DNA of 64,000 bases from Siphonodentalium dalli (Eukaryota; Mollusca; Scaphopoda; Gadilida; Siphonodentaliidae). Where the stretch lies: contig CP136069.1 of assembly GCA_032622095.1 (NCBI GenBank), forward strand, positions 121,388,126 to 121,452,125, written 5' to 3'. Positions 6,901 to 51,287 of the stretch are shown here, piece after piece (within the stretch, counting starts at the first letter, position 1; each line of letters begins with the position of its first letter). The notes below the pieces were generated by a model that saw only the letters and a list, made by a program, of their open reading frames with translations, searched no databases and was not told the DNA's origin. Made by a program: the position numbers and the translations under genes.

Positions 6901-9900
6901 GCGTTTATGTGCGGTAACGGTACGTATATATATTCCAATCAGTTTGCATAATTATATGTGCAGGTATATATTCTATTTCCCCAGCAGGTGTAGTTTATGT
7001 AGGCCAATACACATATGGTGATTGTTGGTCAAGTTTTACCCGTAATATCCTTCTAATTAATTCATATAATGTGACAATATTCACCAAAATTATCATCTCC
7101 GTTCTATGTTCTGTACCCAAGTGAGGCAATTTACACCATATGAAGAATATGCTAATAAAAACGCTATTTAAAGTTCCATGACTGGAGCTTTCTGAAATGT
7201 TGCGGACATCATGTGCCAATGCGTTCTCATATATATGTGTGTCTATTGTGTGAGACTCACATATATAATATAATGCATTGTTATAACAACATTTACATTG
7301 TCCTTGCAAGCGGAAGCATTCTCTTATATATATATATATATAGAGATAGAGTATTTTGTTAGTCAAACGCGCCCCGCGCCCAGCCGCGATCGGCGCGATC
7401 TGGTAACGTACATGTATACGCGCGTTCACATACGTTACTCTATCGAACTATTGAGTATGTGTCCGCGACTATTTAGTACGTGGACGTATCACCTCATATG
7501 GGGTATGTTTTTGGGGGGGGGGGGGTCCTTATGTTTTAAACAGGGATGTGTCAAATGAAATGTGGGCTCTATGTTGGGGGTGGGGGGATTGTCTTATATT
7601 ACATTGATAAATACTCGGAAATGAAGACTTTATTGGGAAGGAACTCTTCTATGTATCACATATGTGTGTGTGGGGGGGGGAGGGGCTCTAGTGTTTAATT
7701 CAGGGACGTAAATTGGTACACTGTGTCTATACGTGTATAACCACCGCAAATGGCCATTTTGTGTTGGGTCATACTCATGTTTGATACAAGGACACATTAG
7801 CGGTAATGGTTTATCTGGGGCTATATATATTTAATGCAGTGTTGTATTACTGGAAATGGGGGCACTATTTTGGGGGGGGGGTGTAGCAATTCCGTTCGAC
7901 AAGAGAGTGAATACTTGAAATGAAGCCTGTGTTTTGAATGGGAGCGCTTCTATTTTATGCAGGGATGTATAATTGGGTTTAGGACCGCGGCTTTTTAACA
8001 CAGGGACGGTAGTACCATAATTATGGTTCGGTTGGAGGGGGGCATACATATGTTTAATGAAGGGATGTGTGTCCGGAAATGGGGGTCTATGTGGGGGATA
8101 CTTTCTGTTACATTGATAAATAATTAGAAATAAGTGTTTTGGGCAGGAACGTTTATATTTAATACAGGGCTATGTGTTTGTAGGGGCGAACAACTATTTA
8201 ATGCAGGGGTGTATTTGACAGAAATGGCTACTTTGCATAGGGGCATACTTATGTTGGACACAAGGACCGGGAATGGAGTCTGTGGGGGCTTACTTATAAT
8301 TAAGGCAGCGGTGTGATAACGGAAATACGGGCTCAATGTTGGGGATGGTAATGCATTTTACTGCATGGATGAATACCTGGAAATGTATTTCACCACCTAC
8401 GCATGCACAACTATGGGTCGTAAAGTTAAGTTATTTGAGTAGGTCTATCATCCACGCACCTAGAATTGATGGACGCAACTGTCATTTTCAAGAGATAACC
8501 ACGGGCCCAGATACTATAATTTAATCACGTGATTTCATGGTACTGGAGCATATGGAGCTACATTGCACCACCCACCCACATCTAAGAGTCATAAAGTGCA
8601 GTTATTTGGGATGTACTCAACCCAAGCATCTAAAGATGATGGGACGCAGCTGGGATTTCCAGAAAGATGTGATCACAGGATCAGATACTATGCGTGATCA
8701 CGAGAGTTGATGGTTCTGACGCATTTGATGCTATATTGCACAACCTACGCACAGTAGTGCGTCATTATGCGGGTTATTTGGGCATGTACACCGGCCAAGC
8801 CTATACAATGACGGGACGCAGCTGGGATTTTCAGAAATAGGTCACCACGAGAGAAGATACTATGATTGATGAACGATAATTGATGGTTCTGATGTGTTGA
8901 TCTTATATTGCACCACAAACACACAAGTGTGCGTCATAGAGTGCAGTTATTTGGGCAGGTGCACCACACTAGCATCTATAAATGATGGGACGCAGCTGGG
9001 ATTTTGAGAAATAGGTCACCACGGGAGCAGATACTAAGCGCGATCACTATATTTGATGGCTCTGACGTATTTGACCTTATATTGCACCAGATCCGCGCAA
9101 CTGTGCGTCATGTAGTGGATATATTTGGACAGGTACATCACCCTAGCATCTAAAAATGATGGGACGCAGCTGGGATTTTGAGAAATAGGTCACCACGGGA
9201 GCAGATACAATGCTTTATCACGATATTTGATGGTTCTGATGTGTTTGACCTTAAATTGCACCACACACACACACAACTTTGCGTCATAGAGTGGAGTTAC
9301 TTCGGCAGGTGCACCACCCTAGCATCTAAAAATGATGGGAAGCAGCTGGGATTTTCAGAAATAGGTCATCACGGGAGCAGATACTAAGCGCGATCACTAT
9401 ATTTGATGGCTCTGACATGTTTGACCTTATATTGCACCACATACGCACAAGTGTGCGTCATAGAGTGCAGTTATTTGGGCAGGTGCACCATCCTAGCATC
9501 TAAAAATGATGGGACGCAGCTGGGATTTTCAGAAATAGGTCACCACGGGAGAAGATACTATGAATGATGAACGATATTTGATGGTTCTGATGTGTTTGAT
9601 CTTATATTGCACCACATACGCACAAGTGTGCGTCATAGACTGGATTTATTTGGGCAGGTGCGACACCATAGCATCTAAAAATGTTGGGACGCAGCTGGGA
9701 TTTTCAGAAATAGGTCATCACGGGAGCAGATACTAAGCGCGATCACAATATTTGATGGCTCTGACGTATTTGACCTTATATTGCACCAGATCCGCACAAC
9801 TGTGCGTCATCTAGTGGAGATATTTGGACAGGTACATCACCCTAGCATCTAAAAATGAGGGGACGCAGCTGGGATTTTCAGAAATAGGTCATTACGGGAG

Positions 9901-12900
9901 CAGATACTAAGCGCGATCACTATATTTGATGGCTCTGACGTATTTGACCTTATATTGCACCAGATCCGCTCAACTGTGCGTCATTTAGTGGAGATATTAG
10001 GACAGGTACATCAGCCTAGCATCTAAAAATGATGGGACGCAGCTGGGATTTTCAGAAATAGGTCATCACGGGAGCAGATACTAAGCGCGATTACTATATT
10101 TGATGGTTCTGACGTGTTTGACCTTATATTGCACAACATACCGCACAAGTGTGCGTCATCAAGTGCAGTTATTTGGGCAGGTGCACCACCCTAGCATCTA
10201 GAAATGATGGGACGCAGCTGGGATTTTGAGAAATAGGTCACCACGGGAGCAGATACTATGCTTTATCACGATATTTGATGGTTCTGATGTGTTTGACCTT
10301 ACATTGCACCACACACGCACAACTGTGCGTCATAGAGTGGAGTTATTTCGGCAGGTGCACCACTATAGCATCTAAAAATTATGGGACGCGGCTGGGATTT
10401 TCAGAAATAGGTCATCACGGGAGCAGATACTAAGCGCGATCACTATATTTGATGGCTCTGACGTATTTGACCTTATATTGCACCAGATCCGCACAACTGT
10501 GCGTCATGTAGTGGCGATATTTGGACAGGTACATCACCCTAGCATCTAAAATTGATGGGACGCAGCTGGGATTTTGAGAAATAGGTCACCACGGGAGCAG
10601 ATACTATGCTTTATCACGATATTTGATGGTTCTGATGTGTTTGACCTTACATTGCACCACACACGCACAACTCTGCGTCATAGAGTGGAGTTATTTCGAC
10701 AGGTGCACCAATCTAGCATCTAAAAATGATGGGACGCAGCTGGGATTTTCAGAAATAGGTCATCACGGGAGCAGATACTAAGCGCGATCACTATATTTGA
10801 TGGTTCTGACGTATTTGACCTTATATTGCACCAGATCCGCACAACTGTGCGTCATGTAGTGGCGATATTTGGACAGGTACATCACCCTAACATCTAAAAA
10901 TGAAGGGACGCAGCTGGGATTTTCAGAAATAGGTCATCACGGGAGCAGATACTAAGCGCGATAACTATATTTGATGGCTCTGACGTGTTTGACCTTATAT
11001 TGCACCACATACGCACAAGTGTGCGTCATAGAGTGCAGTTATTTGGGCAGGTGCACCACCCTAGCATCAAGAAATGATGGGACGCAGCTGGGATTTTGAG
11101 AAATAGGTCACCACGGGAGCAGATACTGTGCGTTATCACGATATTTGATGGCTCTGATGTGTTTGACCTTATATTGCACCAGATCCGCACAAATGTGCGT
11201 CATGTAGTGGATATATACAAGTGTGCGTCATAGAGTGCAGTTATTTGGGCAGGTGCACCACCCTAGCATCTAAAAATGATGGGACGCAGCTGGGATTTTC
11301 AGAAATAGGTCACCACGGGAGAAGATACTATGAATGATGAACGATATTTGATGGTTCTGATGTGTTTGATCTTATATTGCACCAGATCCGCACAACTGTG
11401 CGTCATGTAGTGGAGTTATTTCGGCAGAAGCACAACCCTAGCATCTAAAAATGATGGGACGCAGCTGGGATTTTCAGAAATAGGTCATCGCGGGAGCAGA
11501 AACTAAGCGCGATCACTATATTTGATGGCTCTGACGTGTTTAACCTTATATTGCACCACATACGCACAACTGTGCGTCATGTAGTGGAGATATTTGGACA
11601 GGTACATCACCCTAGCATCTAATAATGATGGGACGCAGCTGGGATTTTGAGAAATAGGTCATCACGGGAGCAGATACTAAGCGCGATCACTATATTTGAT
11701 GGCTCTGACGTGTTTGACCTTATATTGCACCACATACGCACAAGTGTGCGTCATAGAGTGCAGTTATTTGGGCAGGTGAACCACACTAGCATCTAGAAAT
11801 GATGGGACGCAGCTGGGATTTTGAGAAATAGGTCACCACGGGAGCAGATACTGTGCTTTATCACGTTATTTGATGGTTCTGATGTGTTTGACCTTAAATT
11901 GCACCACACACGCACAACTTTGCGTCATAGAGTGGAGTTATTTCGTCAGGTGCACCACTCTAGCATCTAAAAATGATGGGAAGCAGCTGGGATTTTTAGA
12001 AATAGGTCATCACGGGAGCAGATACTAAGCGCGATAACTATATTTGATGGATCTGACGTGTTTGACCTTATATGGCACCACATACGCACAAGTGTGCGTC
12101 ATAGAGTGCAGTTATTTGGGCAGGTGCACCACCCTAGCATCTAAAAATGATGGGACGCAGCTGGGATTTTCAGAAATAGGTCATCACGGGAGCAGATACT
12201 AAGCGCGATCACTATATATGATGGCTCTGACGTGTTTGACCTTATATTGCACCAGATCCGCACAACTGTGCGTCATGTAGTGGCGATATTTGGACAGGTA
12301 CATCACCCTAGCATCTAAAAATGATGGGACACAGCTGGGATTTTCAGAAATAGGTCATCACGGGAGCAGATACTAAGCGCGATCACTATATTTGATGGCT
12401 CTGACGTGTTTGACCTTATATTGCACCACATACGCACAAGTGTGCGTCATAGAGTGCAGTTATTTGGGCAGGTGAATCGCACTAGCATCTATAAATGATG
12501 GGACGCAGCTGGGATTTTGAGAAATAGGTCACCACGGGAGCAGATACTATGCGTTATCACGATATTTGATGGCTCTGACGTGTTTGACCTTATATTGCAC
12601 CAGATCCGCACAAGTGTGCGTCATGTAGTGGAGATGTTTGGACAGGTACATCACCCTAGCATCTAAAAATGATGGGACGCAGCTGGGATTTTCAGAAATA
12701 GGTCATCACGGGAGCAGATACTAAGCGCGATCACTATATGTGATGGCTCTGACGTGTTTGACCTTATATTGCACCACATACGCACAAGTGTGCGTCATAG
12801 AGTGCAGTTATTTGGGCAGGTGCACCACCCTAGCATCTAGAAATGATGAGACGCAGCTGGGATTTTCAGAAATAGGTCACCACGGGAGCAGATACTATGC

Positions 12901-15900
12901 TTTATCACGATATTTGATGGTTCTGATGTGTTTGACCTTAAATTGCACCACACACGCACAACTCTGCGTCATATGGTGGACTTATTTCGGCAGGTGCACC
13001 ACCCAAGCATCTAAAAATGATGGGACGCAGCTGGGATTTTCAGAAATAGGTCATCACGGGAGCAGATACTAAGCGCGATCACTATATTTGATGGCTCTGA
13101 CGTCTTTGACCTTATATTGCACCAGATCCGCACAACTGTGCGTCATGTAGTGGCGATATTTGGACAGGTACATCACCCTAGCATCTAAAAATGATGGGAC
13201 CAGCTGGCATTTTCAGAAATAGGTCATCACGGGAGCAGATACTAAGCGCGATAACTATATTTGATGGCTCTGACGCGTTTGACCTTATATTGCACCACAT
13301 ACGCACAAGTGTGCGTCATAGAGTGCAGTTATTTGGGCAGGTGTCCCACCCTAGCATCTAGAAATGATGGGACGCAGCTGGGATTTTGAGAAATAGGTCA
13401 CCACGGGAGCAGATGCTGTGCTTTATCACGATATTTGATGGTTCTGATGTGTTTGACCTTATATTTCACCAGATCCGCACAACTGTGCGTCATGTAGTGG
13501 AGATATTTGGACAGGTACATCACCCTATCATCTAAAAATTATGGGACGCAGCTGGGATTTTCAGAAATAGGTCATCACGGGAGCAGATACTAAGCGCGAT
13601 CACTATATTTGATGGCTCTGACGTGTTTGACCTTAAATTGCACCACATACGCACAACTGTGCGTCATGTAGTGGAGATATTTGGACAGGTACATCACCCT
13701 AGCATCTAAACATGATGGGACGCAGCTGGGATATTCAGAAATAGGTCATCACGGGAGCAGAAACTAAGCGCCATCACTATATTTGATGGCTCTGACGTGT
13801 TTGACCTTATATTGCACCACATACGCACAACTGTGCGTCATGTAGTGGAGATATTTGGACAGGTACATCACCCTAGCATCTAATAATGATGGGACGCAGC
13901 TGGGATTTTTAGAAATAGGTCATCACGGGAGCAGATACTAAGCGCGATCACTATATTTGATGGCTCTGACGTGTTTGACCTTATATTGCATCACATACGC
14001 ACAAGTGTGCGTCATAGAGTGCAGTTATTTGGGCAGGTGAACCACACTAGCATCTAGAAATGATGGGACGCAGCTGGGATTTTGAGAAATAGGTCACCAC
14101 GGGAGCAGATACTGTGCTTTATCACGTTATTTGATGGTTCTGATGTGTTTGACCTTAAATTGCACCACACACGCACAACTTTGCGTCATAGAGTGGAGTT
14201 ATTTTGTCAGGTGCACCACTCTAGCATCTAAAAATGATGGGACGCAGCTGGGATTTTCAGAAATAGGTCATCACGGGAGCAGATACTAAGCGCGATCACT
14301 ATATTTGATGGCTCTGACATGTTTGACCTTATATTGCACCAGATCCGCACAAGTGTGCGTCATAGAGTGGATTTATTTCGGCCGGTACGCCATCCTAGCA
14401 TCTAAAAATGATTGGACGCAGCTGGGATTTTCAGAAATAGGTCATCACGGCAGCAGATACTAAGCGCGATCACTATATTTGATGGCTCTGACGTGTTTGA
14501 CCTTATATTGCACCAGATCCGCACAACTGTGCGTCATGTAGTGGGGATATTTGGACAGGTACATCACCCTAGCATCTAAAAATGATGGGACGCAGCTGGG
14601 ATTTTCAGAAATAGGTCATCACGGGAGCAGATACTAAGCGCGATCACTATATTTGATGGCTCTGACGTGTTTGACCTTATATTGCACCACATACGCACAA
14701 CTGTGCGTCATATAGTGCAGTTATTTGGGCAGGTGAACCACACTAGCATCTAGAAATGATGGGACGCAGCTGGGATTTTGAGAAATAGGTCACCACGGGA
14801 GCAGATACTATGCGTTATCACGATATTTGATGGCTCTGACGTGTTTGACCTTATATTGCACCAGATCCGCACAACTGTGCGTCATGTAGTGGAGATATTT
14901 GGACAGGTACATCACCATAGCATCTAAAAATGATGGGACGCAGCTGGGATTTTCAGAAATAGGTCATCACGGGAGCAGATACTAAGCGCGATCACTATAT
15001 TTGATGGCTCTGACGTGTTTGACCTTATATTGCACCACATACGCACAAGTGTGCGTCATTGAGTGCAGTTATTTGGGCAGGTGCACCACCCTAGCATCTA
15101 AACATGATGGGACGCAGCTGGGATTTTCAGAAATAGGTCATCACGGGAGCAGATACTAAGCTTTATCACGATATTTGATGGTTCTGATGTGTTTGACCTT
15201 ATATTGCACCAGATCCGCACAACGGTGCTTCATGTAATGGAGTTATTTCGGCAGGTGCACCACCCTAGCATCTAAAAATGATGGGACGCAGCTGGGATTT
15301 TCAGAAATAGGTCATCACGGGAGCAGATACTAAGCGCGATAACTATATTTGATGGCTCTGACGTGTTTGACCTTATATGGCACCACATACGCACAAGTGT
15401 GCGTCATAGAGTGCAGTTATTTGGGCAGGTGAACCACACTAGCATCTAGGGTGATGTACCTGTCCAAATATCTCCACTACATGACGCACACTTGTGCGGA
15501 TCTGGTGCAATATAAGGTCAAACACGTCAGAGCCATCAAATATCGTGATAACGCATAGTATCTGCTCCCGTGGTGACCTATTTCTAAAAATCCCAGCTGC
15601 GTCCCATCATTTATAGATGCTAGTGAGGTTCAACTGCCCAAATAACTGCACTCTATGACGCACACTTGTGCGGATCTGGTGCAATATAAGGTCAAACACG
15701 TCAGAGCCATCAAATATCGTGATAACGCATAGTATCTGCTCCCGTGCTGACCTATTTCTCAAAATCCCAGCTGCGTCCCATCATGTATAGATGCTAGTGC
15801 GGTTCACCTGCCCAAATAACTGCACTCTATGACGTACACTTGTGCGTATGTGGTGCAATATAAGATCAAACACGTCAGAGCCATCAAATATAGTGATCGC

Positions 15901-18900
15901 GCTTAGTATCTGCTACCGTAATGACCTATTTCTGAAAATCCCAGCTGCGTCCCATCATTTTTAGATGCTAGGGTGATGTACAGGTCTGTCCAAATATCTC
16001 CACTACGTGACGCACAGTTGTGCGGATCTGGTGCAATATAAGGTCAAATACGTCAGAGCCATCAAATATAGTGATCGCGCTTAGTATCTGCTCCCGTGAT
16101 GACCTATTTCTGAAAATCCCAGCTGCGACCCAACATTTTTAGATGCTATGGTGGCGCACCTGCCCAAATAAATCCACTCTATGACGCACACTTGTGCGTA
16201 TGTGGTGCAATATAAGGTCAAACACGTCAGAGCCATCAAATATAGTGATCGCGCTTAGTATCTGCTCCCGTGATGACCTATTTCTGAAAATCCCAGCTGC
16301 GTCCCATCATTTTTAGATGCTAGGGGGGTGCACCTGTCCCAGTAACTCCACTACATGACGCACAGTTGTGCGGATCTGGTGCAATATAAGGTCAAACACA
16401 TCAGAACCATCAAATATCGTGATAAAGCACAGTATCTGCTCCCGTGGTGACCTATTTCTGAAAATCCCAGCTGCGTCCCATCATTTCGAGATGCTAGGAT
16501 GGCGCACCTGCCGAAATAAATCCGCTCTATGACGCACACTTGTGCGTATGTGGTGCAATATAAGGTCAAACACGTCAGAGCCATCAAATATAGTGATCGC
16601 GCTTAGTATCTGCTCCGTGATGACCTATTTCTGAAAATCCCAGCTGCGTCCCATCATTTTTAGATGCTAGGGTGATGTACCTTTCCAAATATCTCCACTA
16701 CATGACGCACAGTTGTGCGGATCTGGTGCAATATAAGGTCAAACACGTCAGAGCCATCAACTGTCGTGATAACGAATAGTATCTGTTCCCGTGGTGACCT
16801 ATTTCTCAAAATCCCAGCTGCGTCCCATCATTTCTAGATGCTAGTGTGGTTCCCCTGCCCAAATAACTGCACTCTATGACGCACACTTGTGCGTATGTGG
16901 TGAAATATAAGGTCAAACACATCAGAACCATCAAATATCGTGATAAAGCACAGTATCTGCTCCCGTGGTGACCTATTTCTAAAAATCCCAGCTGCGTCCC
17001 ATCATTTCTAGATGCTAGGAAGGCGCACCTGCCGAAATAAATCCGCTCTATGACGCATACTTGTGCGTATGTGGTGCAATATAAGGTCAAACACGTCAGA
17101 GCCATCAAATATAGTGATCGCTTAGTATCTGCTCCCGTGATGACCTATTTCTGAAAATCCCAGCTGCGTCCCATCATTTTTAGATGCTAGGGTGATGTAC
17201 CTGTCCAAATATCTCCACTACATGACGCACAGTTGTGCGGATCTGGTGCAATATAAGGTCAAACACGTCAGAGCCATCAACTATCGTGATAACGAATAGT
17301 ATCTGCTCCAGTGGTGACCTATTTCTCAAAATCCCAGCTGCGTCCCATCATTTCTAGATGCTAGTGTGGTTCCCCTGCCCAAATAACTGCACTCTATGAC
17401 GCACACTTGTGCGTATGTGGTGCAATATAAGGTCAACACGTCAGAGCCATCAAATATAGTGATCGCGCTTAGTATCTGCTTCCGTGATGACCTATTTCTG
17501 AAAATCCCAGCTGCGTCCCATCATTTTTAGATGCTAGGGTGATGTTCCTGTCCAAATATCTCCACTACATGACGCACAGTTGTGCGGATCTGGTGCAATA
17601 TAAGGTCAAACACGTCAGAGCCATCAAATATCGTGATAACGCATAGTATCTGCTCCCGTGGTGACCTAATTCTCAAAATCCCAGCTGCGTCCCATCATTT
17701 ATAGATGCTAGGGTGGTGTACCTGCCCAAATAACTGCACTCTATGACGCACACTTGTGCGTATGTGGTGCAATATAAGGTCAAACACGTCAGAGTCATCA
17801 AATATAGTTATCGCGCTTAGTATCTGCTCCCGTGATGAACTATTTCTGAAAATCCCAGCTGCGTCCCATCATTTTTAGATGCTAGGGTGATATACCTGTC
17901 CAAATAGCTCCACTACATGACGCACAGTTGTGCGGATCTGGTGCAATATAAGGTCAAACACGTCAGAGCCATCAAATATCGTGATAACGCATAGTATCTG
18001 CTCCCGTGGTGACCTAATTCTTAAAATCCCAGCTGCGTCCCATCATTTCTAGATGCTAGGGTGGTGTAACTGCCCAAATAGCTCCTCCACATGACGCACA
18101 GTTGTGTGGATCTGGTGCAATATAAGGTCAAACACGTCAGAGCCATCAAATATAGTGATCGCGCTTAGTATCTGCTCCCGTGATGACCTATTTCTGAAAA
18201 TCCCAGCTGCGTCCCATCATTTTTAGATGCTAGGGTGGTGCACCTGTCCAAGAAACTCAACTACATGACGCACAGTTGTGCGGATCTGGTGCAATATAAG
18301 GTCAAACACATCAGAACTTTCCAATATCGTGATAAAGCACAGTATCTGTTCCCGTGGTGACCTATTTCTCAAATTCCCAGCTGCGTCCCATCATTTCTAG
18401 ATGCTAGGATGGCGCATCTGCCGAAATAAATCCACTCTATGACGCACACTTGTGCGTATGTGGTGCAATATAAGGTCAAACACGTCAGAGCCATCAAATA
18501 TAGTGATCGCGCTTAGTATCTGCTCCCGTGATGACCTATTTCTGAAAATCCCAGCTGCGTCCCATCATTTTTAGATGCTAGGGTGATGTACCTGTCCAAA
18601 TATCTCCACTACATGACGCACAGTTGCGCGGATCTGGTGCAATATAAGGTCAAACACGTCAGAGCCATCAACTATCGTGATAACGCTTAGTATCTGCTCC
18701 CGTGGTGACCTATTTCTCAAAATCCCAGCTGCGTCCCATCATTTCTAGATGCTAGTATGGTTCACCTGCCCAAATAACTGCACTCTATGACGCACACTTG
18801 TGCGTATGTGGTGCAATATAAGGTCAAACACGTCAGAGCCATCAAATATAGTGATCGCGCTTAGTATCTGCTTCCGTGATGACCTATTTCTGAAAATCCC

Positions 18901-21807
18901 AGCTGCGTCCCATCATGTTTAGATGCTAGGATGATGTAACTGTCCAAATATATCCACTACATGACGCACAGTTGTGCGGATCTGGTGCAATATAAGGTCA
19001 AACACGTCAGAGCCATCAAATATCGTGATAACGCATAGTATCTGCTCCCGTGGTGACCTATTTCTCAAAATCCCAGCTGCGTCCCATCATTTCTAGATGC
19101 TAGTGTGGTTCACCTGCCCAAATAACTGCACTCTATGACGCACACTTGTGCGTATGTGGTGCAATACAAGGTCAAACACGTCAGAGCCATCAAATATAGT
19201 GATCGCGCTTAGTATCTGCTCCCGTGATGACCTATTTCTGAAAATCCCAGCTGCGTCCCATCATTTATAGATGCTAGGGTGGTGCACCTGCCCAAATAAC
19301 TGCACTTTATGACGCATACGTGTGCGTATGTTGTGCAATATAAGGTCAAACACGTCAGAGCCATCAAATATAGTTATCGCGCTTAGTATCTGCTCCCGTG
19401 ATGACCTATTTCTGAAAATCCCAGCTGCGTCCCATCATGTTTAGATGCTAGTGTGATGTACCTGTCCAAATATCTCCACTACATGACGCACAGGTGTGCG
19501 GATCTGGTGCAATATAAGGTCAAACACGTCTGAGCCATCAAATATCGTGATAACGCATAGTATCTGCTCCCGTGGTGACCTATTTCTCAAAATCCCAGCT
19601 GCGTCCCATCATTTCTAGATGCTAGTGTGGTGCACCTGCCCAAATAACTGCACTCTATGACGCACACTTGTGCGTATGTGGTGCAATACAAGGTCAAACA
19701 CGTCAGAGCCATCAAATATAGTGATCGCGCTTAGTATCTGCTCCCGTGATGACCTATTTCTGAAAATCCCAGCTGCGTCCCATCATTTTTAGATGCTAGG
19801 GTGATGTACCTGTCCAAATATCTCCACTACATGACGCACAGTTGTGCGGATCTGGTGCAATATAAGGTCAAACACGTCAGAGCCATCAAATATAGTGATC
19901 GCGCTCAGTATCTGCTCCAGTGATGACCTATTTCTGAAAATCCCAGCTGCGTCCCATCATGTTTAGATGCTAGGGTGATGTACCTGTCCAAATATCTCCA
20001 CTACATGACGCACAGGTGTGCGGATCTGGTGCAATATAAGGTCAAACACGTCTGAGCCATCAAATATCGTGATAACGCATAGTATCTGCTCCCGTGGTGA
20101 CCTATTTCTCAAAATCCCAGCTGCGTCCCATCATTTCTAGATGCTAGTGTTGTGCACCTGCCCAAATAACTGCACTCTATGACGCACACTTGTGCGTTTG
20201 TGGTGCAATATAAGATAAACACATCAGAACCATCAATTATCGTTCATCAATCATAGTATCTTCTCTCGTGGTTACCTATTTCTGAAAATCCCAGGTGCGT
20301 CCCATCATTGTATAGGCTTGGCTTGTGTACCTGCCCAAATAACCCACATAATGACGCACTATTGTGCGTAGGTTGTGCAATATAGCATCAAATACGTCAG
20401 AACCATCAACTCTCGTGATCACGCATATTATCTGATCCTGTGATCACATCTTTCTGGAAATCCCAGCTGCGTCCCATCATCTTTTGATGCTTGGGTTGAG
20501 TACAGCCCAAATAACTGCACTTTATGACTCTTAGATGTGGGTGGGTGGTGCAATGTAGCTCCATATGCTCCAGTACCATGAAATCACGTGATTAAATTAT
20601 AGTATCTGGGCCCGTGGTTATCTCTTGGAAATGATTGTTGCGTCTATCAATTCTAGGTGCGTGGATGATAGACCTACTCAAATAACTTAACTTTACGACC
20701 CATAGTTGAGCAAGCGTAGGTGTTAAAATACATTTCCAGGTTTTCATCCATGCAGTAAAATGCATTACCATCCCCAACATTGAGCCCGTATTTCCGTTAT
20801 CACACCACTGCCTTAATTATAAGTAAGCCCCCACAGACTCCATTCCCGGTCCTTGTGTCCAACATAAGTATGCCCCAATGCAAAGTAGCCATTTCTGTCA
20901 AATACACCCCTGCATTAAATAGTTGTTCGCCCCTACAAACACATAGCCCTGTATTAAATAGAAACGTTCCTGCCCAAAACACTTATTTCTAATTATTTAT
21001 CAATGTAACAGAAAGTATCCCCCACATAGACCCCCATTTCCGGACACACATCCCTTCATTAAACATATGTATGCCCCCCCCCCCCCCGACCGAACCATAC
21101 TTATGGTACTACCGTCCCTGTATTAAAAAGCCACGGTCATAAACCCAATTATACATCCCTGCATAAATTAGAAGCGCTCCCATTCAAAACACAGGCTTCA
21201 TTTCAAGTATTCACTCTCTTTTCGAACGGAATTGCTACCCCCCCCCCCCCCCAAAAATAGTGCCCCCATTCCCAGTAATACAACACTGCATTAAATATAT
21301 ATAGCCCCAGATAAACCATTACCGCTAATGTGTCCTTGTGTCAAACATGAGTATGATCCAACATAAAATGGCCATTTGCGGTGGTTATACACGTATAGAC
21401 AACAGTACCCCGGCGCACAGTGTACCAATTTTGTTACGTCCCTGAATTAAACACTAGAGCGCCCCCCACACACACACATCTGTGATACATAGAAGAGTTC
21501 CTACCCAATAAAGTCTTCATTTCCGAGTATTTATCAATGTAATATAAGACAATGCCCCCCCCCCCCCAACATAGAGCCCACATTTCATTTGACACATCCC
21601 TGTTTAAAACATAAGGACCCCCCCCCCCCAAAAAAAGCATACCCCATATGAGGTGATACGTCCCCGTATTAAATAGTCGCGGACAAATACTCAATAGTTC
21701 GATAGAGTAACGTATGTGAACGCGCGTATATATGTACGTTACCAGATCGCGCCGATCGCGGCTGGGCGCGGGGCGCGTTTAACTAACGAAATACTCTATC
21801 TCTATAT

Positions 21808-21849
<42 letters not shown>

Positions 21850-21881
21850 CTATATATATCTTCTATATCTATATTTGCGAA

Positions 21882-21912
<31 letters not shown>

Positions 21913-24696
21913 GTTCTATAGAAATTCACAGGGGACCATCTAGATGATGCCAAAGGGGTCTACTAGGAGTAGCTTTTTACGAGAAAGATAATGGTCGGGG
22001 TTAGAATTTTCTAAAGTGACGCCGTTGTTGTCAGGGGCAGAAAAGGGGGAGGGGCAGAAAAAAAATTTGTCGCCGATTGCCACCAAACTTATATATAATC
22101 ATCACCATACTATGAGGAATCTAATGGCGTGGTTTAAATATGGCAAAAGTCGCGCCGTTCGCGTCAGGGGTACCAGGAAGGGGGGTGGGCAGAATTTTTT
22201 TCTGTCGCCGATTGCCACGAAACTTACATATAATCATCCCCATGATATGAAGAATCCATCGGTGTAGTTAAATCTGTCAAAAGTGGCGTCGTTTGAGTCA
22301 GGAATGAACGGAAAAGGAGAGTGGCACCAAAATTGATAAAACTAATTTTAGCGCCGATTTCCACCAAATTGATATATATTCTTCTTCGTGATACAAGGAA
22401 TCTAATTGTGAGATTTAACAACGCCAAATTGTTGTTTTTGGATGAGAGATTGGGAGGGGGTGGGCACTAAATTTAATAATAAGTCGCCGATTGCCACCAC
22501 ACTTATACAAAATCATCCCCATGGTATGAGGAGTCTAATGGTGTGGCTTTTATCTGTCAAATGTGGCCTCATTCGAGTCAGGGTTGCATTGAAAGGGACA
22601 GGGGCACCAAAATTTATGCACAATGTTTTTAGCGCCAATTTCCACCAAATTGATACACGTTTTTATCCATGATACGAGGAATCTAATCGTGATTTAAAGA
22701 CGACATAATGGTGCTGTTTGGGTGAGAGATGGAGAGGGGAGGGATTGGCACCAAATTTTATAAAAAAAAATTGATTAGTCGCCCATTATCACCAAACTTA
22801 TAAACAATCATCTCCATGATATCAGGAGTGTAATCGTGTGGTTTAAGGGTGTCACAAGTGGGGCCATTCAAGTCAGTGGTGTATAGAGATGAGAGGGACA
22901 CAAAAAATTATATCTATATGTTTAGTGCCGATTTCCACCAGATTGATACATATTCTTCTCCGTGATACGAGGAATCTTATCGTGTGGTTTAGATACACCA
23001 AATTGGTGCCCTATGGGTGAGAGATATGGGGACCTTAAATTTGATACGAATTTGTATACTCGCCAATTTTCACCAATTTCATATATATGCATCTCTAATC
23101 TCTAATGAGTCTTAGTGTGTGCAGCTTGAGTCCGAAATAGGGACGGGAGGGTCACCAAAACTGATACAAAATATTTTTAGTACCAATTACCATCAAATTC
23201 AGACACGTTCTTCTCAAATGATACAAGAAATAAAATCGTGCTGTCTGTCTGTCTTTTTGTCTGTCTGTGTGCATTCTATATATAGCTTCACACGGTACAA
23301 TCGAGATGGCACCAAGGCGTTCTAAGATGGGTAACTTTTTACAAGGAAGACAATGGTGCGGGTTAACATTTTCTAAAATGACGCTGTTGGTGGGAGGGGA
23401 AATTAAAAAAATATGGTGAAATAGTTTTGTCGCTGATTTCCACCAAACGAATACATAATCACCTTCGCAATATGGCGTTGTTCGAGTCAGCGTTGCATCA
23501 ACAATTGATTTAATAAACCAAATTCCACCAAATTCATACACTTTTTTCTCTAATGATATACCATGAATTAAATCACATTTGGTGTCGTTTGCGTCACGGA
23601 TGGCGAGCGGATATGCACTATCATTGATAAGATTGCTATTCGCCGATATCCACATATAAGTTATATACAGTCACCAGGCCATCTCCATATCATTTTAAGT
23701 AGTTGGGCGTTCACATTTCACAATCCCGACATATGGTGACCCACATAAGTCACTTGAACAATTATATCTTCTTAACAGTCATATTTATATGGGAATGGCA
23801 ATCAAGGCGTTCACACAATGAGCTAGCAAAAAGAGATAACTAGAAGAATCATTAAACGTATATTTTTATCATTCTATTGAAGAGATACATATATTCGTGC
23901 AAACTGAGAGACCTCGAACCGTCAGAGGATTGCATATATATAATAAAAAAAATTAGTCTGTTCCATTCAATACAGTTTCCACAAAAAGTTACAATTTGTC
24001 AAGAGATATGGAAGGCCTGTTCAAAAATAGTGGTCACAGTGTGCAGTCAAATATAGTTTCTTCTGATAAACAAGAAAATGCAGTTAGTAGCACAAGACTT
24101 TTCAGGATCCTACTAATACTGACATCTGACAAGGGTTTTAGAACAGACTCATCGACTGACATAAACAACTCAAAATTCTCGCTCTGTGCCTGTCACATGT
24201 AGCTGATATATAGGCGCAGCAACATTTCGTTTAAACTAAGAATATTTAGCCAATATATAGCACCATGAACAGAGGAGCACCTGGAAATTTCTTTGAAACA
24301 TCTGTATCTTCATGGAGATATGATAGCCAGGTGTCCTCGAGATCTTAGTCCAACCCACTAGATTGATTGATACATCTCAATATGTAAAACCCAATTATCA
24401 TCTTTTATCGAACTAATGTGTTTATGATGTTCATGTGTCATATTATAATTTATACGCAGTTGTAAATAAATAAATACTTCATTATTGGTGGAACAGATTA
24501 ATCGTCATAAACAGAATGACAATTGACAAGGTGAGCCACTACTTATATTACATGACTGTAATAATCATGTTTTGTGATGCTAGTTGAATATACAATTTTA
24601 TGAGAAAACGTATAACACTTTAAGCAAGAGCATTCTCTATTCCCAACAAATATCCACAGCATACATTAACCTGGGCAACGCCGGGTAACCCTGCTA

Positions 24697-24748
<52 letters not shown>

Positions 24749-40049: not shown

Positions 40050-40775
40050 AGCGTACAGTTGTATATAAGAATAAATTGAAAGCATGGTTTAGAAAAACAT
40101 TATTGTATTGTAACAAGACCTTTCACAGCTACTGCTGATCTTCTGGTTACACAATGTATAATCTCATAATGTATAATGAATATTAATGTCACTTCCGAAT
40201 TTTTGTTTCATTACATATTGACCAAAGTGGGGGGTGATGCGTCTCATCCCAACCCCCTGAACATACAATATGTCCAAAACAAATTCACATGAGTCACACT
40301 GAGAGTCATATTAATGCGTCACCTGTTTCAAACTGTTCGCACAAAATTGAGACAAACGCTCTTCATTTCTACCATATAATGAGTAACCTTCACAATTAAC
40401 GTTCTTTGTTTCTGACGGACGATAATTAACATATTTATCGACGTCATGTAATTTTTATCCCGGGATCATGACCGGAATGTGACTGAAAGGAGCACCCCTA
40501 TATAGTATGAGGCTTCAACCCACCAAGTGCATTTGGCCACAAATCGGGGAATGATATCTGATACGAAACCATGCACGCCATACATGAACAAATTGAAACA
40601 ACCAGGCCGTGGACACATATTAATGTCTATATTAATGTGGCTAACGAAAACGATACTCCCGCATCTAACAACTCAAGTATGTAACATGAGTACCAACCGA
40701 TAAGACCAACCACAATGTATCAAGGCATCGCGTTGTCCGTAGAATATTATTTGGCCGGCATCGTACGTGTTCAAA
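40050..40775. other. Upstream region of the receptor-like gene
   Basis: No repeat or gene recognised. The promoter of the Cys-loop receptor gene is expected here, but no TATA box is evident just before the ATG at 40776. Confidence 0.35.

Positions 40776-51287
<10,512 letters not shown>

Follow-up and report, generated by a model that had tools for sequence, protein, structure and literature searches.

FB of Drosophila and TU of the sea urchin are foldback elements, and foldbacks with tandem-repeat arms that feed satellites are already known, with Tetris and Galileo as examples. In Tetris, from Drosophila virilis, the inverted repeats consist of an outer flank followed by tandem repeats of ~220 bp; complete copies contain no open reading frames (ORFs), its transposase was not found, arrays reach up to 66 repeats, and fibre-FISH (fluorescence in situ hybridization) revealed long repeat arrays bounded by two outer flanks (PMC4079207). 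Galileo, a member of the P superfamily, has long inverted repeats that are repetitive inside and unequal in repeat number between the two ends (PMC4168063, PMC3573991), and the longest Galileo of D. willistoni, at 9.0 kb, is made of two repeats (4.2 and 4.7 kb) and lacks a transposase (PMC4168063). In Rehavkus, relatives of the Mutator-like elements (MULEs), a mini-satellite lies ahead of the 3' inverted repeat (PMC6446971). Here we describe a giant palindrome, and the family to which it belongs, in a stretch of 64,000 nucleotides ("the window") from the scaphopod mollusc Siphonodentalium dalli (assembly GCA_032622095.1, contig CP136069.1, here C9:121388126-121452125; genome of 2.23 Gb in nine contigs, C1 to C9).

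The palindrome is one of 12 paired copies (E1 in the window, E2 to E12 elsewhere) of a family built on a 174-bp satellite, and we regard it, at a probability of roughly 0.8, as a non-autonomous cut-and-paste DNA transposon of giant foldback type. It is the many copies, the single terminus, the target duplication and a related empty site that lead to this reading. The 174-bp family resembles Tetris in having an outer flank plus tandem repeats in inverted arms and no transposase found, and Galileo in its repetitive inverted arms of unequal repeat number. Whereas three structurally complete sequenced copies are described for Tetris, each with an inner domain, 12 paired sequenced copies are available here, one arm holds up to 143 monomers and the six copies that were read have no inner domain. 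In the open-licence literature, a body that leaves most subscription papers outside, we came across neither sequenced foldback transposons of 12-45 kb that lack a central domain nor a terminus shared by two satellite families. The kind of element is known (Tetris, Galileo, and MuTAnT of Medicago); its size, its missing centre and its exchangeable satellite are new.

Structure of the palindrome

A sequence-only reading of the window had described a satellite palindrome between 7330 and 21815, with arms of 8.1 and 6.4 kb meeting head to head, and had taken it for a very large, TA-flanked foldback element with tandem-repeat arms. The palindrome and its build were borne out by the arrays, the inverted outer blocks, the sister copies and the TA sequence at the ends; the exact limits were not, since the terminal motif places them at 7343 and 21802, the rest being TA repeat. 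The features of this region are as follows (TRF, Tandem Repeats Finder).

7325..7342, no strand: TA run (target side) adjoining the left end; the 8 bases beyond the end are TATATATA (sequence)
7343..7358, + strand: left terminal motif GAGATAGAGTATTTTG, which departs from GRGATWGASTATTTCG by a single change (motif scan of the window)
7343..8390, + strand: left outer block, arm haplotype A (alignment, arm search, haplotype typing)
8391..8563, + strand: outermost, decayed satellite monomer (70.7% to consensus; maximum of 30 shuffles 65.5%)
8562..15448, + strand: left satellite array, 174-bp monomer, 39.4 copies (TRF; monomer typing)
15439..15449, no strand: centre CTAG-CAT-CTAG, orientation switch without spacer (sequence; exact-pattern search)
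15446..20528, - strand: right satellite array, 29.2 copies (TRF)
20529..21802, - strand: right outer block including the decayed outermost monomer, arm haplotype B (alignment, haplotype typing)
21787..21802, - strand: right terminal motif GAGATAGAGTATTTCG (motif scan of the window)
21803..21874, no strand: TA run adjoining the right end, with TATATAGATATA beside the end as in E2 (TRF, end comparison)
21861..24698, + strand: Helitron-like repeat in the same TA run, outside the element, limits approximate (sequence; parts match the flanks of E5 and of the small element L045)

The palindrome thus covers 14,460 bp, with arms of 8,106 and 6,354 bp, each composed of an outer block of ~1.05 kb and 174-bp satellite, the two arrays being opposed head to head. 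The stretch 7325-8700, which takes in the outer block and the first monomers, aligns to the complemented right side at 94% identity over 1,409 columns, with 3% gaps. There is no unique DNA at the centre, where the arms abut without a spacer at 15444, and the innermost 1.5 kb, folded about this point, is 92% alike in a gapped alignment. Because monomer identity averages 88% both within and between the arms, these are not a simple mirror copy of each other; the two outermost whole monomers do pair across the arms, and taken together this indicates that the arms have a common origin and that the inner arrays have turned over. With up to two mismatches allowed, the terminal motif has two matches in the window, which are the two ends (shuffled sequences gave 0.20 matches on average, and 1 in 100 reached two).

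Sister copies across the genome

A genome search with the outer block returned 47 matches (40 of 74 candidates scored). The sequence-only reading had held that arms never found paired would speak against an element, and 24 of the 25 matches listed at ≥94% identity do pair up, forming 12 inward-facing units of 12.5-44.9 kb (nested inserts counted) on seven contigs, eleven of them besides E1; the remaining match, C4:89609393, has no partner among those listed. The exact 20-bp terminus is present at 32 genome sites, against none for the reversed control, and 23 of these sites belong to the 12 elements, the left end of E1 deviating by one base.

Copies E1, E2, E3, E4, E10 and E12 were read end to end, with pieces <40 bp merged. 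Each has a single orientation switch and the order outer block, satellite, inverted satellite, outer block, and E11 likewise has one switch among the matches listed. A similarity search for the centre junction scored 6 of 70 candidates; the subsequent exact pattern search located the 24-bp junction at three genome sites (E1; E2, C7:197180858; E3, C3:96579803) and its reversed control at none. The elements with this common centre measure 14.5, 19.9 and 43 kb (in the largest, a nested insert accounts for 13 kb); the centres of E4, E10 and E12 differ from it. Comparison of 21 flanks (up to ~1.6 kb) detected a repeat in common in seven pairs, none between E1, E2 and E3, and in the 21 ends inspected homology ends at the terminus.

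In E2, the surplus is a Polinton/Maverick-like insert of 13.1 kb in the left array (L022:946-L023:4049, C7:197 Mb), in which Pfam recognises an rve integrase core and, weakly, Adeno_IVa2 (packaging-type ATPase), besides other long open frames. E12 carries inserts in both arms with a common open frame that has no Pfam match, and its left terminus is severed from the outer block after ~25 bp. E10 owes its size to longer arrays.

Searching with the terminal 160 bp gave 41 matches, and four loci were read (L041 to L044), one of which, L042, is a truncated copy beside a reverse transcriptase. At L043:5435-6007 (C2:6.8 Mb) there is a decayed lone arm with ~1 kb of satellite that abuts an F-box frame (Pfam F-box-like, 2.4e-06), and this frame extends slightly into the satellite. 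L044:246-422 (C4:43.1 Mb) is a mini hairpin of 177 bp, formed by the terminal ~120 bp together with a portion of its own inverse, a derivative of the 174-bp family resembling a miniature inverted-repeat transposable element. When the 174-bp satellite itself was searched for, the 5 of 50 candidates that were scored all lay at loci of the family; arm-less arrays may exist.

Termini and insertion into TA runs

The common terminus of the family, GAGATAGAGTATTTCG, is set in TA runs. TA-rich sequence adjoins 20 of the 21 ends examined (TATA at 19, exactly TATATATA at 16), the left end of E4 being the sole exception. Both flanks were compared in nine copies, and in one of these, E9, an 8-bp duplication is readable: TAGCTATA stands on either side, the only match longer than 2, and it can be read there because the TA run is interrupted.

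Copy E5 interrupts an abundant repeat, and the homology of both its flanks converges on one spot. We take this repeat to be Helitron-like from its 3' CTAGT ending, of the kind found in Helitrons; its signature occurs at 777 + 748 = 1,525 genome sites (reversed control 0). Among the 55 empty copies listed, the one closest to the E5 flank has only TATATATT at this spot and represents a related empty site, whereas the TA runs of E5 measure 18 and 30 bp, a lengthening known from this one copy. The Helitron-like repeat recurs beside elements or as their host, at window 21861-24698, from L045:3773 onward and in the flanks of E5.

Arm haplotypes and growth of the arrays

With 21 diagnostic columns, 20 of 21 arms could be assigned to type A or B by most columns, and the right arm of E12 is a mosaic. 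Nine copies had both arms typed: seven are A/B, one is A/A (E4, arms 100% identical in the outer-arm typing) and one is B/B (E11, 99.7%). The same A/B pair in most copies is expected if the units moved whole, and the A/A and B/B units suggest that sequence from one arm can replace that of its partner. In E4, 1,978 of 1,979 bases of the outer 2 kb are alike (99.95%), but only 92.5% of the inner 1.5 kb, so that the A/A identity reaches at least the outer 2 kb and not the centre. On these figures we rejected a fresh fold-back as the source of the A/A state; replacement of an outer arm fits better.

We typed 754 whole monomers in the six copies read, dropping those cut by locus borders or inserts, and the counts per arm range between 9, in the right arm of E2, and 143, in its left arm. 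The A arms of E1, E2, E3 and E10 start with the same monomer types, and so do their B arms, differently from A; the monomer order of the two A arms of E4 is common to them and peculiar to that copy. The left arms of E1 and E2 are 99.1% identical over the outer 3.9 kb, and the inner 4.2 kb of E1 is found in tandem in E2, at least two full times. In the array of E12, a 1,726-bp insert is present twice, 100% identical and ~4.9 kb apart. The tandem segment in E2 and the doubled insert in E12 indicate that the arrays grow by segmental duplication. The inner arms of E1 and E4 were each folded and compared by gapped alignment, as BLAST missed obvious array matches.

A second satellite behind a similar terminus

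Locus L041 (L041:1-7675, C7:4.2 Mb) begins with 668 bp of the outer block of the 174-bp family (92%) and continues into a different satellite, with a 209-bp monomer, of which at least 36.7 copies run to the end of the stretch read. The 209-bp satellite has 509 candidate places, and several + then - blocks are seen among the matches listed (39 places scored). One small element of the 209-bp family that was read, L045, has inverted ends that start with GGGATTGACTATTTCG, two opposed sets of 4.9 and 6.9 monomers, a centre of 438 bp of other sequence and a flanking 8-bp duplication, TAATTTTT. Its first 16 bases agree with GAGATAGAGTATTTCG at 13 positions, a score reached by 3 of 200,000 shuffles for a match that had been noticed before testing. 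Relative to the end, the 209-bp array of L041 runs opposite to that of L045, which marks L041 as chimeric and not as the product of simple nesting.

The motif joint to both families, GRGATWGASTATTTCG, has 168 + 156 = 324 exact genome sites, against 0 + 3 in the reversed control. Within the first 100 sites listed, 22 neighbour pairs less than 60 kb apart face inward (0.5-23 kb) and 6 do not. At C3:73.08-73.54 Mb, ~398 kb separates two 0.5 kb motif pairs in a region with repeated fragments of Merlin-type transposase, which may reflect a segmental duplication. A wider proposal, which we consider doubtful, is that GRGATWGASTATTTCG termini define a superfamily of satellite cassettes: one transposase would serve exchangeable fillings (174-bp, 209-bp and the chimera), much of the dispersed satellite would be transposon cargo, and a hairpin intermediate, with one arm serving as template for its partner, might keep the elements palindromic, which would account for the A/A and B/B units.

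Superfamily and transposase

Long inverted repeats with tandem repeats make up most of the element, dispersed copies have common termini and there is a target duplication, all as in the foldback class. The 8-bp duplication, the terminus starting with G, the foldback form and the TA target resemble those of Mutator-like elements, MuTAnT foremost. MuTAnT is likewise a foldback with a G-starting terminus and a (TA)n target that is longer when filled; it differs in its size (~200 bp-1.6 kb), its 9-nt duplication and its identified autonomous element, and the accessible part of the report mentions no satellite (PMC4486113). Insertion into TA runs is common to both, the lengthening after insertion being judged here from E5 alone. 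The Mutator-like foldbacks Tm1 (nematode) and Muta1 (mosquito) are similar in their composite inverted repeats, internal tandem repeats and 8-10 bp duplications, but their repeat units measure ~14 and 12 bp and their transposase is known (PMC3169594, PMC5225508); Muta1 has been assayed in yeast (PMC5225508). A duplication of 8-10 bp with long inverted repeats, as expected of Mutator, is present here (8 bp), a combination that other superfamilies share and that is not diagnostic. Mutator-like mobilisation of the 174-bp family is plausible, and we infer a transposase acting in trans, with cut-and-paste chemistry, of the Mutator-like class. We nevertheless rejected filing the family as MULE and assign it to no superfamily: MULE, P-type and Merlin domains are present in the genome, none of those scored on C1, C2 and C3 up to 126 Mb being near the listed termini.

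This last result and several others weigh against a transposon. The sequence-only reading had found no transposase inside E1, and we saw none in any of the copies read. Transposase domains were compared with termini as scored matches on C1, C2 and C3 up to 126 Mb against the 100 listed motif sites, and on this covered part no Mutator, P or Merlin transposase lies between the termini. The nearest MULE transposase is 104 kb from a listed motif site (47 of 150 scored matches on the covered part; the best 150 of 813 candidates were scored and C4-C9 lie outside the coverage, so that an autonomous copy could be missed). The corresponding distances are 211 kb from the nearest listed terminus for P-type transposase (28 of 97 scored matches) and 30 kb from the nearest listed motif site for Merlin (IS1595-type; 13 of 62). 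Nine of the 32 exact 20-bp termini are single, with no partner among the sites listed, and E5 holds a run of 100 N that makes its length uncertain. As to the target, TA repeats mask the duplication in five of the nine copies compared, the left end of E4 has neither TA nor a duplication, the flanks of E1 and E2 match over 6 bases and not 8, and both E1 and E2 read TATATAGATATA beyond the right end (window 21803-21814) despite their unlike flanks. From this last observation, some of the TA run may move together with the element. With Galileo, the difference lies in the size of the longest D. willistoni copy (9.0 kb) and in the known P-type transposase, P-type domains being at least 211 kb off the listed termini here.

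At the other loci read, L041 to L044, no transposase was recognised, Pfam having been applied to four frames of L042 and one of L043. In the window, Pfam searches of 10 ORFs identified two reverse transcriptases and a tubulin at 61-62 kb; they did not confirm the protein-coding intron in which the sequence-only reading had placed the palindrome. A direct duplication is found at window 40500-47500 (~40.9-42.7 and 45.5-47.3 kb, spacing 4,649 bp), and the predicted frames of its two parts are identical.

Alternative explanations

The abrupt, spacerless centre, together with the run of N in E5, could suggest an assembly join or a fold-back read artefact, in which an arm is read back as its own complement. 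We give this practically no credence: the arms are unlike each other (94% with gaps, 39 against 29 monomers), the same centre is present at three sites on three contigs with mutually unmatched flanks, and there are 12 paired copies. The sequence-only reading had also considered an inverted-duplication element of a new type or an amplification capped by a hairpin. As a one-off event at the E1 locus this is very improbable, although CTAG-CAT-CTAG, with its 3-nt loop and no spacer, is what fold-back priming might be expected to leave, and E4 (A/A) and E11 (B/B) have two arms of one haplotype. The unit, with its one terminus, is present at 12 places in the genome, seven of the nine typed copies have the A/B structure, and the inner arms of E4, alike at only 92.5%, show that its A/A state is no fresh fold-back about its centre; with copies, terminus, target duplication and related empty site at hand, such a mechanism is unneeded. 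The sister copies contradict a one-off origin of E1, yet fold-back may explain the first palindrome of the family.

Satellites can also form macro-dyads by themselves, and those of Tribolium resemble our elements in their head-to-head arrays, from kb to tens of kb (up to 75 kb in T. madens), and their conserved inversion sites (PMC13081366). If the 174-bp family were such an ordinary dispersed satellite, moved as extrachromosomal circles or by recombination, the outer block would be a mere array edge, and its outermost monomer is indeed decayed in the style of an array edge. Tribolium macro-dyads, in contrast, form putative (peri)centromeric blocks, with no transposon termini described in the accessible text (PMC13081366). 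A static macro-dyad would have neither termini nor a duplication, and both are present here: the 16-bp terminus is partly common to a second family, homology halts at it in the 21 ends inspected, the target is TA, 8 bp are duplicated and a related empty site exists. We consider this explanation improbable. Carriage of satellite DNA by Helitron-type rolling-circle elements has been reported in oyster (PMC7492417), and Helitron-like repeats are found in the flanks of E1 and L045; for our element, such carriage is contradicted by the inverted ends and the target duplication, the repeat being neighbour or host of the insertion and not its carrier, and we see hardly any chance of it here.

Proposed mechanism and implications

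For a non-autonomous foldback transposon, we propose that a transposase supplied in trans would recognise the GRGATWGASTATTTCG termini and move the unit as a whole, both outer blocks and both satellite arrays included. It would insert this unit into short TA runs, where 8 bp of the target would be duplicated and slippage would subsequently lengthen the runs. Between moves, segmental duplication and unequal exchange would let each satellite arm lengthen or shorten independently, and occasionally one outer arm might overwrite its partner.

Instability is the general expectation for long spacerless palindromes. Despite this, one centre is found here at three insertion sites, and nine further pairs exist elsewhere. 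Since the arms are marked by haplotype, arm exchange, array growth and centre shift can be followed copy by copy. The dispersed satellite is tied to a terminus that occurs hundreds of times, so that the question of where scattered satellites come from becomes directly testable, and the element family offers one route for spreading satellite DNA around chromosomes.

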